Positions 3,646 through 39,022 of a stretch of DNA of 39,759 bases are shown in pieces. The notes under the pieces were generated by a model. It was not told where the DNA came from. It saw only the letters and a list, made by a program, of their open reading frames with translations, and ran no database searches. The stretch lies in assembly GCA_000999465.1 (NCBI GenBank), contig LCGB01000005.1, positions 1 to 39,759 of the forward strand, written 5' to 3'. Numbering within the stretch: the first letter of the stretch is position 1; the number at the start of each line of letters is the position of its first letter. The DNA is from Candidatus Nomurabacteria bacterium GW2011_GWB1_43_19 (GTDB lineage: Bacteria > Patescibacteriota > Minisyncoccia > Phycocordibacterales > UBA9973). Position numbers and translations under genes: made by a program.

Positions 3646-4179
3646 ATGAATAAGAAATCTTCACCCCAAAAAACCAAAAAGGTGGTAATGGTCAGCGGAG
3701 GATTCGACCCGGTGCATATCGGCCATGTGCGGCTTTTCAACGAGGCGAAAAAGTTAGGCGACGAGCTGGTGGTGGTGATTAACAACGACAACTGGCTCCG
3801 GTGCAAGAAGGGATATGTTTTTATGCCGGAGCACGAACGTAAAGAGATTATTGAAGCGTTTCAGGCGGTAGACCGGGTTCTCTTAAGTAGCCATAAGAAG
3901 AATACGAAGGATATGAGTGTTTGCATGGAGTTAATCAGGGTCAGACCTCATGTTTTTGCCAACGGGGGAGACAGAAACGAGAAAGACGCGGACAATCCGG
4001 AGTCCTCGTTGTATCGGGAAAGGCAAATACACAAAAAACTCGGGATAACAATGGTGTATAATGTGGGGTATGGAGGCAAAGTGCGCAGTTCGTCCGAATT
4101 GATAAAAAAAGTGCATAAGAAGATAAGTAAGAATCCCAGTAGTAGAGCAAAGCTCACTACGGGACGAAGGAAAAAATAA
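3646..4179 (+). CDS. cytidylyltransferase-like nucleotidyltransferase (RfaE/HldE C-domain-like)
   Basis: VSGGFDPVHIGHVRLF (HxGH motif); C-terminus encoded by a palindromic element. Confidence 0.85.
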   Translation: MNKKSSPQKTKKVVMVSGGFDPVHIGHVRLFNEAKKLGDELVVVINNDNWLRCKKGYVFMPEHERKEIIEAFQAVDRVLLSSHKKNTKDMSVCMELIRVRPHVFANGGDRNEKDADNPESSLYRERQIHKKLGITMVYNVGYGGKVRSSSELIKKVHKKISKNPSSRAKLTTGRRKK

Positions 4180-5329: not shown

Positions 5330-6521
5330 AAAAAATCCCAGTAGTAGAGCAAAGCTCACTACGGGACAAAGAAAAGTAATACTTGCCCGCCATAGCCTTG
5401 GCGAAGGCGGGAAGAAGAAAACCAAAGTTGTTGTCAGGCGGAAAACAGCGGTCAAGAAAGCGGTTGCAAAAAAGAAAACTTCCCCGCTGGAGCTCAGGAA
5501 GTCCCAAAAAAATCCAATTATTGAGCCGGAGCGAAGCGCGTATTGGGAATCAAAAGCGACTTTTAATCCGAGCGCCGTTTACAGCGACGGAAAAGTGCAT
5601 GTCATTTACCGGGCTATTGGCGACAGCGACATTTCCGTACTAGGTTATGCCAGAAGCGACAACGGCTATTTGTTTGATAAAAATTCAAAAAAAATAGCCT
5701 ATTACCAAAAAGGAAAATTCGCGGTCAGAAAAGATGCGGTTAAAATTAACTACATATCCGGCGGCGGATGGGGCGGCGGGTGCGAAGACCCGCGGCTGAC
5801 GCTTCTGAGTGATAAAGTATATATGCTTTACACGGCGTTTGACGGATGGGGGTCCGTGCGAATTGCCCTTACCTCCATCAGCCTGGATGATTTTATCGGC
5901 AGGCGATTTGACTGGAAAGAACCGGTCTTGATTTCTCCTCCGGGAGAAATCCACAAAAATTGGGTACTTTTTCCGGAAAAGATAAAGGGCAAATACGCGA
6001 TTTTGCACAGCATTTCCCCGCACATCATGATAGATTATTTTTCTTCCCTGGATGAACTGGATGGCGAGAATTTTATACACAGCGTTCATCAGGGCAGTTC
6101 CCTGTGGTCCGCGCGGGATAGGCTAATCAGAGGCGTTGGGCCTGCGCCAATTAAGACAAAATACGGATGGCTGGTCCTCTACCATAAAATGGAAAAACAC
6201 GACTCGCACCGATATAAGCTCTGGGCGATGATTTTGGATTTAAAAGACCCGGCTAAAATTTTATATAATTCCAGGCATCCGATTCTGGAACCGGACGAAT
6301 GGTATGAGAATGAGGGATATAAAGCTGGCGTGGTGTATGCCTGCGGAGCGGTGGTCAAACCCGCCCGACCGGACGACTCCAGTCGTTCGGGCGGGGACGA
6401 GCTTTTCGTTTATTATGGCGGCGCGGACAAGGTCTCTTGCGTGGCCACGGCCAATCTGGACGCATTCTTGAAAGAACTGGTTTATTCCGGCGCGTCCAAA
6501 TTAAAAAGCAGAAAGAGTTAA
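5316..6521 (+). CDS. GH130-family beta-mannoside phosphorylase-like protein with basic N-terminal extension
   Basis: NPIIEP...YWESKATFNPSAVY, GCEDPRLTLL, HKNWVLFPEK, ELFVYYGGAD. Confidence 0.85.
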   Translation: MAALKKNPSSRAKLTTGQRKVILARHSLGEGGKKKTKVVVRRKTAVKKAVAKKKTSPLELRKSQKNPIIEPERSAYWESKATFNPSAVYSDGKVHVIYRAIGDSDISVLGYARSDNGYLFDKNSKKIAYYQKGKFAVRKDAVKINYISGGGWGGGCEDPRLTLLSDKVYMLYTAFDGWGSVRIALTSISLDDFIGRRFDWKEPVLISPPGEIHKNWVLFPEKIKGKYAILHSISPHIMIDYFSSLDELDGENFIHSVHQGSSLWSARDRLIRGVGPAPIKTKYGWLVLYHKMEKHDSHRYKLWAMILDLKDPAKILYNSRHPILEPDEWYENEGYKAGVVYACGAVVKPARPDDSSRSGGDELFVYYGGADKVSCVATANLDAFLKELVYSGASKLKSRKS

Positions 6522-11347: not shown

Positions 11348-11371
11348 GTATTTAATTACGTAATTAAATAC
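11348..11371. repeat. 24-bp perfect palindrome GTATTTAATTACGTAATTAAATAC
   Basis: Self reverse-complementary; related half-copies at 950-978 and 2613-2640. Confidence 0.9.
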
Positions 11372-11379
11372 GTACTTTG

Positions 11380-12270
11380 TTAACCGAAATTTTTATAATC
11401 AATTTCTTTTCCGCTCTCGGGAATCACTTTTTTTATGACAAATTTCCCATCTTGGAGCGCGGCGTCGGTGACAATAATTCGTTTGCCGTCTTTTCCTCCA
11501 GAGGCGGATCCGCCTTTGGCGGAAAAAAAGAAAGTCCTGGGCCAGTGCGCGTAGGCACGGAATTTGTTGTAATTTTTTACCGCGTCGTCATCCAAGTCCA
11601 GTAGCCCGTCCTCCTTTTTTATTTTCGCGCAGTATGTTGCTTTACTTTCATCTTGCGGCACTTCTTTAATTTTTTCGTCCGCCAAGTCCGGCAAAATTTT
11701 TATCAGCAGCTCCCCGCCGATTTTTATCAGGCGAGTTCGCAACTCGGGGGCCTTCTCGTCCGGCGGTATCGCCGTTTTTTCCGTTGCGATAATCGGGCCC
11801 GAATCCATCTTATATGTCATTTTTTGGATAGTTATGCCGGTTTCCGTGTCGCCGTTTAAAATTGCGGATTCCACGGGGGAAGCCCCGCGGTATTTGGGGA
11901 GCAGAGAATAGTGAATGTTGATAGAGCCATACTTCGGAATATTCAAAATTTCCTCCGGAAGTATTTTTCCGTAAGCGACAATGATAAATAGGTCAAAGTT
12001 TTTACCCTCCCCTATGTCAGACATAGGGGAATTTCCCCTATGTCTGACATAGGGGAGAAGTTCCGCCTGATTTTCCGGCTGGATGTACGGAATCTTGTTT
12101 TTCTCCGCCCAGACCTTGACCGGCGGGGGAGTGATGAGCATTTTGCGCCCTTGGGGCTTGTCGGGAGAGGTAATAATCAAAGACGGCAGATAGCCGTTCT
12201 CTTTCAAGATTTGGAGAGTCTCCGAGGCCACATCCGGGGTTCCGAAAAATGCAAAATTTGATTTATTCAT
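11380..12270 (-). CDS. fmt: methionyl-tRNA formyltransferase with two in-frame palindrome-encoded insertions
   Basis: FFGTPDVASETLQIL, VVAYGKILPEEIL-like, NIHYSLLPKYRGASPVESAILNGD. Confidence 0.95.
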   Translation of the reverse strand: MNKSNFAFFGTPDVASETLQILKENGYLPSLIITSPDKPQGRKMLITPPPVKVWAEKNKIPYIQPENQAELLPYVRHRGNSPMSDIGEGKNFDLFIIVAYGKILPEEILNIPKYGSINIHYSLLPKYRGASPVESAILNGDTETGITIQKMTYKMDSGPIIATEKTAIPPDEKAPELRTRLIKIGGELLIKILPDLADEKIKEVPQDESKATYCAKIKKEDGLLDLDDDAVKNYNKFRAYAHWPRTFFFSAKGGSASGGKDGKRIIVTDAALQDGKFVIKKVIPESGKEIDYKNFG

Positions 12271-15883: not shown

Positions 15884-15895
15884 AGCCTTATATCT

Positions 15896-15912
15896 CTGAG
15901 GTCTTGCCTCAG
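15896..15912. repeat. left RAYT hairpin CTGAGG-TCTTG-CCTCAG
   Basis: Exact reverse complement of 16592-16608. Confidence 0.9.
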
Positions 15913-15938
15913 GGATGGAAACTTGTTATGATAATGGC

Positions 15939-16595
15939 ATGTCTATTCGTAAAGTCTCTTTTGTGTGTGGTGAATATTATCATATCTATAATCGCGGAAA
16001 TAGTAAGCAAAAAATATTTCACGATAAAGAGGACTATTTGCACTTTATAAAATTGTTATATGTCTTAAATGAAAAAAATAACAAACAATTAAGGGATCAG
16101 ATTCACGATGTATTTATTTTTCATGACCATCGTGACCCACTTGTTGCGATTGGCGCTTATGCTTTAATGCCGAATCACTTTCATATACTAATCACTCCAA
16201 CAAAGGAAAGAAGTGTCAGTAAGTTTATGCAAAAAGTATGTACCGGGTATGTGATGTATTACAATCAAAAATATAAAAGGAGCGGCAGCTTATTTGAGGG
16301 TAAATTTAAGTCTCAACACGCTAGTAGTGACAGATTTCTTAAATATCTTTTCTCGTACATACATTTGAACCCAGTAAAATTGATAGATAAAAATTGGAAA
16401 GAAAAAGGAATTAAAAATATTCAAAAAACTTTGGAATTTTTGAATACATATGAATATTCAAGTTATTTAGATTATGTAAACAAAGATAAGAGACCTCAAA
16501 GTATTATTTTAAATAAAAAGGCCTTCCCTGATTATTTTCTGAGCCAGAAAAAGTTTAAGGAAGAAATACTGGAATGGATAAATTATAATCACTGA
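15939..16595 (+). mobile_element. REP-associated tyrosine transposase (RAYT, Y1/IS200-like)
   Basis: YYHIYNRGNSKQKIF, YALMPNHFHILI (HUH motif), GSLFEGKFK, YIHLNPVK; start at 15939 with TATGAT 6 nt upstream. Confidence 0.92.
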
Positions 16596-16610
16596 GGCAA
16601 GACCTCAGTG
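16590..16610. repeat. right RAYT hairpin CACTGAGG-CAAGA-CCTCAGTG
   Basis: Inverted copy of the left hairpin; contains RAYT stop codon. Confidence 0.9.
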
Positions 16611-24462: not shown

Positions 24463-24474
24463 TATAATACTTTT

Positions 24475-24996
24475 ATGAATACAGGAGAACTGCCCGCCAG
24501 AGGCGGGTCCGCCCTTGGCGGAAAAATCTGTATTGGCACGGACCATGCGGGATATGTGCTCAAAGAAAAACTTGTTTCCTTCCTGAAGCTTCAAGGGTAT
24601 GAAGTCGTGGACAAGGGCGCTTTTGAATACAACGAGGAAGATGATTATCCGGATTTTGTTGTTCCTGTCGCGCATGAGGTTTCCAAAAATCCCGACAAAG
24701 TGAAGGGCATTATTTTAGGAGGCACGGGAGAAGGAGAGGCTATCACTGCCAACAGGTTTCCTCATGTTAGAGCCGTTGTTGATTATGGCAATGCGAAGCC
24801 CATTGTGGACGATGAGTCCAATATAATTGTCCGGTCCAGGGAACATAATAACGCGAACGTCCTTTCTTTGGGCGCCAGATATTTTACCGAGGAGAGCATG
24901 ATGGAAACCGTAAATCTCTGGCTCAACACGCCTTTCAACAGGGACGAAAGGCACATTCGCCGCTTGGCGAAAATTGACGCGATAAAAATAGATTAA
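24475..24996 (+). CDS. rpiB: ribose-5-phosphate isomerase B with palindrome-encoded N-terminal extension
   Basis: KICIGTDHAGYVLKEKL, GIILGGTGEGEAITANR. Confidence 0.9.
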   Translation: MNTGELPARGGSALGGKICIGTDHAGYVLKEKLVSFLKLQGYEVVDKGAFEYNEEDDYPDFVVPVAHEVSKNPDKVKGIILGGTGEGEAITANRFPHVRAVVDYGNAKPIVDDESNIIVRSREHNNANVLSLGARYFTEESMMETVNLWLNTPFNRDERHIRRLAKIDAIKID

Positions 24997-28821: not shown

Positions 28822-30189
28822 ATGTCCAAAAAACTGATTTTAGTTTTAGTGTTGGGTCTTTTCTTTTTTAAATTCAATCTTGTCCAGGCGGGGGTGATAA
28901 TAAACGAGTTTGTTCCTTATGGGGCTACGGAATGGGTGGAATTACTTAACACAACAAATTCCGATATTCCTCTGGACGGGTGGTCCTTGGTAGATGCCGC
29001 TAATCATATTAAATCACTGACCCCGCTCGGATCAATCTCAGCTCACGGAATTGTTGTATATGAATATAATGCCGCCTCTTCAGGATGGTTGAATAATGAT
29101 GCTGATTCTATAGAGCTTCGCGATGCTGCGTTGGAACCAAAAGACAAAGTATCCTATGGCACCACCGATTTGGCTGTACCCTCAACAGGTAAGTCCGCGG
29201 CCTTAATATCGGGCGACTGGCAAACTAATCAAGAACCCACAAAAGATACAGCGAACCTTTCTTCCAGCAACAACGGCGACAGTAACGATTCCACGGAAGA
29301 CGAATTTTCTTCCGATACGATCACTCCAGCAAGCGTCGCCGACACAAAGCCGGTTTCTTCGAAAATCAAGACGGAAATTTCGGTGCGTAACATCGCGTAC
29401 GTAGGCATACCGCTCGCGTTTCAGGGCAAGGTCATGCAGGGCAAGCAGCTCTTTCGCGGCAGGTATTTCTGGAATTTCGGCGACGGTGACTTCCGGGAAG
29501 TTAAAATAATCAACACCGATAAATTTACCCACACTTATTTTTATCCCGGCGACTATGATGTTGTGCTGGATTATTATCCAAATTTTTTTGCTGACACTCC
29601 TGCCGCCAGTCAAAAAATTACGGTCAAAGTGGTGCCGGCCGGCGTTTCCATATCCAGAACCGGAGATGAAAAAGATTTTTTTGTAGAGTTGACCAACAAC
29701 AGCAATTACAATGCCGATATCTCAAACTGGAAAATCACCAGTAGTGCCAAAAGTTTTACCATCCCCCGCAACACCATCATGACGCCCAAGAAACAAATGA
29801 TTATTTCTTCCAGGATTACTGGTTTTTCAGTTGCCGACCGAGGCACTTTAAAATTATTGAGTCCTGTCGGCGAGGCGATGTCTGATTATTCATTTTCCGT
29901 TAAGCCAGTTAAAGTTACTTACAATTCGGATGTTGGACGTCCGAATTCCGGACGTCCAACATCCGAATTAACACCTTCATCCGGGCAACCCCCGGAAGAG
30001 TATTTGCCGGCCGGGGCTTTCGGTAGCGGTGTCTCTGGGGAGGACACAAGCCCGTATTCGCCCCTCTTTATTCCCATCGCTTCTGTGGTTTTAATAAGCG
30101 CCGGCGCCGGTAGCGTTTATTTTATACGCCGGAAAAAGGCCGTTCCAAGTTCGGAAATTGGCGCTGACTTTGAAATTTTGGATGAGTAG
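28822..30189 (+). CDS. secreted/anchored surface protein with lamin-tail (LTD) and PKD domains
   Basis: Signal peptide; VIINEFVPYGATEWVELLNTTNSDIPLDGWSL; YFWNFGDGD...THTYFYPGDYDV; C-terminal TM plus RRKK. Confidence 0.85.
   Translation: MSKKLILVLVLGLFFFKFNLVQAGVIINEFVPYGATEWVELLNTTNSDIPLDGWSLVDAANHIKSLTPLGSISAHGIVVYEYNAASSGWLNNDADSIELRDAALEPKDKVSYGTTDLAVPSTGKSAALISGDWQTNQEPTKDTANLSSSNNGDSNDSTEDEFSSDTITPASVADTKPVSSKIKTEISVRNIAYVGIPLAFQGKVMQGKQLFRGRYFWNFGDGDFREVKIINTDKFTHTYFYPGDYDVVLDYYPNFFADTPAASQKITVKVVPAGVSISRTGDEKDFFVELTNNSNYNADISNWKITSSAKSFTIPRNTIMTPKKQMIISSRITGFSVADRGTLKLLSPVGEAMSDYSFSVKPVKVTYNSDVGRPNSGRPTSELTPSSGQPPEEYLPAGAFGSGVSGEDTSPYSPLFIPIASVVLISAGAGSVYFIRRKKAVPSSEIGADFEILDE
29923..29969. 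repeat. perfect 21-bp-arm hairpin inside the LTD gene
   Basis: AATTCGGATGTTGGACGTCCG / AATTC / CGGACGTCCAACATCCGAATT. Confidence 0.95.
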
Positions 30190-30190
30190 T

Positions 30191-30238
30191 TCCCCTATGT
30201 CTGACATATGGGAATTTCCATATGTCAGACATAGGGGA
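30191..30238. repeat. double palindrome TCCCCTATGTCTGACATATGGGA-ATT-TCCATATGTCAGACATAGGGGA
   Basis: Same element as in fmt (12008-12056), here intergenic. Confidence 0.9.
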
Positions 30239-30287
30239 AGAGAATGATATTCTGGCTTATGGGAGCATATTTTGCTATATTCTAGAG

Positions 30288-33680: not shown

Positions 33681-33716
33681 ATTGTTATAAACTTTGCTAT
33701 CGCAGAAAATGTAACA
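33681..33716. repeat. 36-bp hairpin repeat, copy 1
   Basis: ATTGTTATAAACTTTGCTATCGCAGAAAATGTAACA. Confidence 0.85.
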
Positions 33717-33725
33717 AATGGCTCG

Positions 33726-34217
33726 TTAGAGTATTTTCTTCGTTGGGTCATATCCTTTTGCCAACTTAAAGGTTTTGACATCATTTTTTAGTCCGATACT
33801 CTTTACATAGTCCAGGAATGCTTTTGGTAGGGGAGATGGCCCGACCCAGACGCTTTTTTGCATCATAATATAATTAAACTTTTTGAGATGCCAACGGAGC
33901 CACTCCCTTTCGGCTTTTTTGGTCTCAGGCACATCAAACATCACCAAGAGATTTTTTGGTTCATCCTTGCTGAACTTAAAGTTAAACTGCTTCAGTGAAT
34001 CAATTTTTCTTCTGATATAATTTCTACCCTTTAGAGTAATGAATAATCCGTCACAGTCTTCTATAAAGCCTTCCTTTTTGAGACGAGACATGGTGCCACG
34101 CAGAGAACTTGGTGAATATTTGTTAAATTTTGGCAAACCCAAAAGGTTTACACGGCTTCCTTTGTAATTGAGTGATACATTGCTAAGCTCTTTTAAAATA
34201 TCGTATATAATACTCAT
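33726..34217 (-). CDS. winged-helix + Cas2-like (PaaX/VapD-type ferredoxin fold) protein
   Basis: C-part NLLVMFDVPETKKAEREWLRWHLKKFNYIMMQKSVWVGP resembles the Cas2/PaaX-C beta-alpha-beta core; N-part wHTH-like. Start 34217 has TATATT 6 nt upstream. Confidence 0.6.
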   Translation of the reverse strand: MSIIYDILKELSNVSLNYKGSRVNLLGLPKFNKYSPSSLRGTMSRLKKEGFIEDCDGLFITLKGRNYIRRKIDSLKQFNFKFSKDEPKNLLVMFDVPETKKAEREWLRWHLKKFNYIMMQKSVWVGPSPLPKAFLDYVKSIGLKNDVKTFKLAKGYDPTKKIL

Positions 34218-34233
34218 ATATAAAATATACCAC

Positions 34234-34269
34234 ATTGTTATAAACTCTGCTATCGCAGAGAGTGTAACA
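34234..34269. repeat. 36-bp hairpin repeat, copy 2
   Basis: ATTGTTATAAACTCTGCTATCGCAGAGAGTGTAACA; 33/36 identical to copy 1. Confidence 0.85.
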
Positions 34270-38608: not shown

Positions 38609-39022
38609 ATGGAATTTGATTACACTACAATTACAGCAAAATCATTTGATAAAGCTGTTCAAAGCGTGCAAGAAGAAATCGCCAAAGCCGGCATGCGGGT
38701 TCTATATGTCCATGATGTGCAGAAAACTTTGGGCGAGAAAGGACTTGAAAGAGAACCGTTTAAAATTATTGAATTTTGCAACGCCAAGTTTGCCAATGAG
38801 TTTCTGAACAAAGACATTAAACTCGGACTTTGTCTGCCCTGTAAGATAAATGTGTATGTAAAAGACGGACCTGCCTCCGCCCTGGCTTCGGCGGGCAAGC
38901 AAACTTTCATTTCCGGCATGCGTCCGATTATTCTGCCTCAATTTTTTCCAGAGACAGATTTGGGCGGGAGGCCCGAAGAAATTGACCAAATTATTCAAAA
39001 CATTATTAATAACGCAAAATAA
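38609..39022 (+). CDS. DUF302-family protein with inserted palindrome-encoded peptide
   Basis: KIIEFCNAKFANEFLNKDIKLGLCLPCKINVYVKDG; copper neighbourhood. Confidence 0.75.
   Translation: MEFDYTTITAKSFDKAVQSVQEEIAKAGMRVLYVHDVQKTLGEKGLEREPFKIIEFCNAKFANEFLNKDIKLGLCLPCKINVYVKDGPASALASAGKQTFISGMRPIILPQFFPETDLGGRPEEIDQIIQNIINNAK

Follow-up and report, generated by a model that had tools for sequence, protein, structure and literature searches.

A 30-nt palindrome, probably mobile, that adds a ten-residue linker to RpiB, Fmt, and other proteins in Patescibacteria and several unrelated phyla

Palindromic repeats that lie in frame within protein genes have been described in Rickettsia, in which the Rickettsia palindromic elements (RPEs) are 105–150 nt long (Ogata 2000 and later; reviewed in PMC10969869 and PMC2229807). 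Other small repeats are the REP/REPIN doublets, with their RAYT transposases (PMC3116915, PMC2817692, PMC6006769), and miniature inverted-repeat transposable elements (MITEs) with in-frame fusions, such as ERIC, Correia/NEMIS, and YPAL (PMC2229807). We analyzed a 39,759-nt stretch of DNA (the window), which is contig 5 of the 24 contigs in the 623-kb genome of Candidatus Nomurabacteria bacterium GW2011_GWB1_43_19 (the host genome). It contains two copies of a 30-nt palindrome, TCCGCCNNNGGCGGATCCGCCNNNGGCGGA, composed of two hairpins of 15 nt each. One copy is in rpiB, encoding ribose-5-phosphate isomerase B (24475–24996, + strand; PF02502/NF004051), as an N-terminal insertion; the other is in fmt, encoding methionyl-tRNA formyltransferase (11380–12270, − strand; TIGR00460). 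The results make it very probable that this palindrome is a non-autonomous mobile element, RPE-like in the way it works, whose copies are filtered through selection on the encoded peptide.

Like RPEs, the element occurs in intergenic DNA as well as in frame within conserved but unrelated protein genes, and its host is a genome-reduced bacterium; the encoded peptide likewise recurs in one dominant frame, and no mobilizing enzyme has been identified for either. It differs in its size of 30 nt or 10 residues, in being a codon-aligned doublet hairpin with the target TTY^RAA, and in occurring in Patescibacteria and several unrelated phyla. The length of 105–150 nt and the long stem-loop of RPEs are not found in the 30-nt unit, and no Rickettsia was among the matches listed in a scan of public genomes. 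The element is not a member of the RPEs as these have been described, being set apart by length, target, host range, and codon-aligned design. Like REP/REPIN sequences, which are hairpins of 20–40 nt that often form doublets, it is a doublet of short hairpins, and Y1 transposases with flanking palindromes are abundant in its genus; however, REPs are extragenic, whereas 20 of the 21 host copies with two or fewer mismatches lie inside genes, and at about 45 loci no Y1 gene was found to be flanked by the 30-nt palindrome. Insertion without target-site duplication at exact empty sites is also a likeness to IS200/IS605-type elements. MITEs are likewise small non-autonomous repeats with occasional in-frame fusion, but they are mainly intergenic, about 100–200 nt long, and mostly accompanied by a target-site duplication; no duplication was present at the empty sites of the window element, and no parent transposon was found.

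The copy in rpiB occupies positions 24493–24522 (+ strand) and is read PARGGSALGG; the copy in fmt occupies 11494–11523 (− strand) and is read SAKGGSASGG, so that Fmt reads ...FFF-SAKGGSASGG-KDGK. A preliminary description of the window had pointed out the similarity of the 28-mers at 24494–24521 and 11495–11522. Its coordinates, peptides, and count of identical positions (25 of 28) were correct, and the natural unit is 30 nt. The two copies are indeed on opposite genomic strands, as it also remarked, but this is uninformative: the element is almost identical to its reverse complement, and its codon-aligned phase gives SAxGGSAxGG on both strands. The other two phases encode Pro-rich PPxADPPxAE or Arg-rich RxRRIRLxRK, and none of the three phases contains a stop outside the NNN codons. 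Chance or low complexity was ruled out as the source of the match: dinucleotide shuffles gave an expectation of 0 matches, compared with 4 observed (two sites, both strands). A known RNA family was dropped as its identity after an Rfam search of the window matched none.

The coding context of element copies was read from the stretches around the matches. At three or fewer mismatches the host genome contains about 26 places with the element, compared with 0 for a reversed-pattern control. The host carriers, identified by Pfam as core genes, are of RNase PH/S1/KH (pnp) type, RsmA type, FtsK, AtpA, RsmH, GyrA, GyrB, a pseudouridine synthase, a poly(A)/CCA polymerase, DnaJ, AlaRS, a MYG1 family protein, GatB, an amidohydrolase, a glutamine amidotransferase, RpiB, and Fmt; the inserts in AtpA, AlaRS, and GyrB are alignment gaps relative to solved structures. 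At one or no mismatch the element is carried by 30 of 100 relatives, with copy numbers from 0 to about 14 within one genus. The public genome scan yielded at least 118 stretches, mostly from Patescibacteria; the matches listed also included Omnitrophota, Ignavibacteria, Kiritimatiellae, Lentisphaerae, Deltaproteobacteria, Chloroflexota, and others. The element is thus present genome-wide and across phyla. Carriage as plasmid or phage cargo was rejected: the plasmids and phages searched gave no match at the sensitivity used, and only 1 of 2.9 million viral contigs had the element. No description of such elements in candidate phyla was found in the open-licence literature.

Copies were counted as coding when they lay in open reading frames (ORFs) of at least 150 residues; outside the host genome, genes were called by ORF length and not by annotation. 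All 20 coding copies in the host genome with two or fewer mismatches were codon-aligned and read SAxGGSAxGG, and allowing three mismatches added one codon-aligned copy along with two that were degenerate and in another phase. In relatives 23 of 25 coding copies were codon-aligned, and those among the matches listed from public genomes (n = 87) were distributed 80/4/3 over the three phases. Overall, the phases of 132 long ORFs from many phyla were 123/5/4, the 123 having the element between codons and reading SAxGGSAxGG; a stricter gene rule, under which the sampled coding fraction of element copies was 0.89, gave 104/5/3. The single preferred translation frame proposed in the preliminary description was therefore upheld: coding copies were not spread evenly over the frames, and the element did recur elsewhere.

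The target TTY^RAA was seen at the flanks of coding and intergenic copies alike. When genes were scanned with a flank profile taken from intergenic copies, the prediction for phases 0/1/2 was 43/16/41%, compared with the 123/5/4 observed (P = 2e-34), and target sites in empty genes numbered 216 in one phase vs. approximately 1,050–1,100 in each of the others. Target preference therefore partly explains the scarcity of one phase, but not that of the other. In 129 coding copies, the loop codons of the coding strand included 0 stops vs. 13 reverse complements of stops (P = 2e-4), and the orientation of the second loop that gives Ser was favored over that giving Phe, Leu, or Tyr (60 vs. 22; P = 3e-5). 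Phase bias, stop avoidance, and Ser orientation are signs that the linker peptide is made and selected, and selection would be the cause of the phase bias.

Comparison with relatives revealed exact empty sites, a finding that, like the second palindrome family in fmt considered below, goes beyond the preliminary description. In Fmt relatives WPRTFFF-KDGKR is uninterrupted, and the window Fmt is longer there by exactly ten residues; the DNA of the empty site is TTTTTT^AAAAAT or TTTTTC^AAAGAT. One relative (G017) has a copy of the element at the identical point, and another (G031) has a different palindrome-like insert there. The empty site in GyrB relatives is EIF^KD (EIF-KDIKFDW), and it is filled in four genomes (the host, G035, G037, and a Nomurabacteria genome) that are scattered on the gyrB tree. 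In three Ignavibacteria the element lies inside YPNPF^NPST, a conserved sorting-domain motif. The inserts in fmt and YPNPF are clean gains of 30 nt, with neither duplication nor loss of the target, and no target duplication was found at the exact empty sites, including that in gyrB. At gyrB, fmt, and rpiB the identical site was struck in unrelated or non-sister genomes. The element must have been gained more than once or, on a less simple reading, lost exactly and repeatedly.

The protein start of RpiB is MNTGELPARGGSALGG-KICIGTDHAG. That its N terminus was built from the palindrome, as had been suggested, was supported by 28 congeners, in which rpiB opens ATG-AAAAT or ATG-AAGAT with the ATG directly before the AAA-AT or AAG-AT, often with TATAAT 6–9 nt before the ATG, as well as by the insertion found at the identical point in a genome of another family (G096), where the unit lies directly between ATG and AAAATC. 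Among the 397 genomes of the order, this site was filled only in the host (G000) and G096, which belong to different families. The order in the window is TATAAT (24463–24468, + strand), 6 nt, ATG, 15 nt, the 30-nt unit, and AAAATC, and the insert relative to the 28 congeners is 45 nt, comprising the palindrome plus 15 nt. These 15 nt, AATACAGGAGAACTG (24478–24492, + strand; NTGEL codons), are absent from relatives and were not seen at other copies of the element. They include AATACAG, the inverse complement of CTGTATT at 24528–24534 just past the element, and a template-switch origin of the 15 nt is possible from this pair. The TATAAT, placed as in several relatives and a putative promoter element, suggests that the rpiB mRNA is leaderless and begins at the ATG at 24475. 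There is no in-frame ATG, GTG, or TTG between the element and the KICIGTDHAG active-site strand; therefore, translation of rpiB must run through the element. In the AlphaFold model of RpiB, residues 1–13 have pLDDT <50 and the first strand begins at 17.

These results lead us to propose that the palindrome, as two 15-nt hairpins, makes clean insertions at TTY^RAA-like sites, with no duplication of the target, presumably by a DNA transposition mechanism. Because the unit is 30 nt long, has no fixed stops, and is near its own reverse complement, insertion at a codon boundary would always add a SAxGGSAxGG linker, irrespective of the coding strand. Those that fall in the Pro-rich or Arg-rich phases would mostly be purged, and the survivors would be in-frame flexible ten-residue linkers, probably neutral, in loops and termini of essential proteins. 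The rpiB copy would be one such insertion just past the start region, translated within the enzyme.

Several points weigh against this proposal. The case for translation of the linker is built on sequence rather than on peptides, and gene calls beyond the host genome depend on ORF length. The copies are partly non-independent, and some common sites may have been inherited. The other phases account for about 7% of coding copies, some of them possibly 5′ of the true start. No transposase flanked by the 30-nt palindrome was found among approximately 45 Y1_Tnp loci or in the surroundings of the copies. Finally, the low pLDDT of modeled inserts may partly reflect homologues missing in those columns.

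Four other explanations were considered. Conservation of the stems far above that of the loops could indicate a DNA or RNA element with a host function, such as a regulatory hairpin or a protein-binding or recombination site, for which the frame is incidental. In keeping with this, the RNA around the rpiB start is predicted to fold into two TCCGCCNNNGGCGGA hairpins (z = −2.7), and a few CAGCC/GGCTG stem variants retain pairing, although the search itself favored paired stems. We consider a host function unlikely, as most relatives lack the element at the corresponding sites, copy number varies widely among congeners, the biases of phase and orientation track the peptide encoded, and no Rfam family matched. 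Strong hairpins in essential genes and exact insertion would also suit removal or skipping of the element, by RNA processing or translational bypassing, such that it never appears in protein. This is extremely improbable, because it predicts no phase bias, stop avoidance, or Ser/Phe orientation bias, all three of which were observed, and the element has a length divisible by three.

A third explanation is that the phase bias comes from insertion-site preference alone, with TTT^AAA within codons creating TAA in one phase. The TTY^RAA target does exist at both coding and intergenic copies, and one phase is disfavored in empty genes; yet the NNT TTA AAN-type phase, with 1103 sites vs. 1054 at codon boundaries, received 4 insertions vs. 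123, and no codon-phased recognition motif was seen on non-coding insertions. Site preference alone is accordingly very improbable. For rpiB only, the palindrome could be a 5′ leader with the start elsewhere, at CTG 24490 or a non-standard codon, and this CTG is preceded by AGGAG and has no other ATG nearby. We judge this quite improbable: a start at CTG 24490 would still read through the element, the usual start codons are absent between element and active-site strand, and the TATAAT lies 6 nt 5′ of ATG 24475 as in leaderless-looking relatives.

Within the preferred reading of a mobile palindrome filtered at the peptide level, we give about an even chance to a more specific proposal: that it is a selfish palindrome active across phyla, its sequence tuned to yield a benign Gly/Ser linker at any codon boundary on either strand, and adapted to the essential genes of streamlined genomes. 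Gyrase, ATP synthase, tRNA synthetases, and proteins like them would repeatedly acquire natural linkers from such an element. Protein-coding palindromes have so far been described as a peculiarity of Rickettsia; the present family is much shorter, apparently independent, and found in many phyla. Its copies are numerous enough to separate target preference from peptide selection, and the persistence of mobile DNA inside essential genes becomes testable by counting. Insertion would also explain the odd SAKGGSASGG-type segments of uncultured bacterial proteins, which should then be taken neither for functional motifs nor for assembly errors.

Y1 single-strand transposases are numerous in the genus, and most of those inspected were bordered by their own palindrome pair. 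The window has one such gene (Y1_Tnp, RAYT/TIRYT-like; 15915–16595, + strand; PF01797 match at C5:16140–16364), with its own palindrome, CTGAGG..CCTCAG, on either side (15892–16610): CTGAGGTCTTGCCTCAG at its left edge (15892–15916) and the matching CTGAGGCAAGACCTCAG at its right edge (16590–16610). Some Y1_Tnp was present in 27 of 30 genomes with the element vs. 41 of 70 without it (P = 0.002), and clean insertion without duplication would fit single-strand transposition. A search for a Y1 transposase that would mobilize the 30-nt palindrome, around the copies and at 40 Y1 loci, found no such gene.

The window Fmt contains palindromic inserts of two different families, and in its AlphaFold model pLDDT is <50 only at these inserts (79–89 and 250–258). 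The second insert is a doublet, TCCCCTATGTCNGACATAGGGGA twice, that is unrelated to the 30-nt unit (12007–12057, − strand) and is read RHRGNSPMSDIGEG. Another doublet of this family lies directly 3′ of the stop codon of ORF 28822–30189 (30190–30239). The family (CCCCTATGTCNGACATAGGGG; doublets approximately 25 nt apart) was found at 32 places in the genome, with one doublet translated in fmt and another, at C15:15350, that is probably coding. The fmt palindrome also borders a Y1 transposase gene on contig 4 (C4:8851–9117), and a REP-like origin of this family is therefore plausible. Other recurring linker inserts, LRTLGRSDGDGQRKFS, STSPLLRGRLGG, DPLDPARGK, and ARRSLGEGG, were seen in fmt of relatives (L236, L218, L219, L221, L240, and L244), which points to several additional coding repeat families at those tolerant Fmt loops.

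Additional repeats were observed in the window. A third GC-rich palindromic repeat, CTTGCCCGCC..GGCGGG, is at 5382–5411 and 38870–38899, and a 45-nt repeat containing AGTAGTAGAGCAAAGCTCACTACGGGA is at 4129–4173 and 5331–5375 (93% identical). Three copies of a AATTACGTAATTAAATACATACATA-like sequence are at 949–973, 2616–2640, and 11354–11378, and a 36-nt repeat (92% identical; 33681–33716 and 34234–34269) flanks ORF 33726–34235 on both sides.
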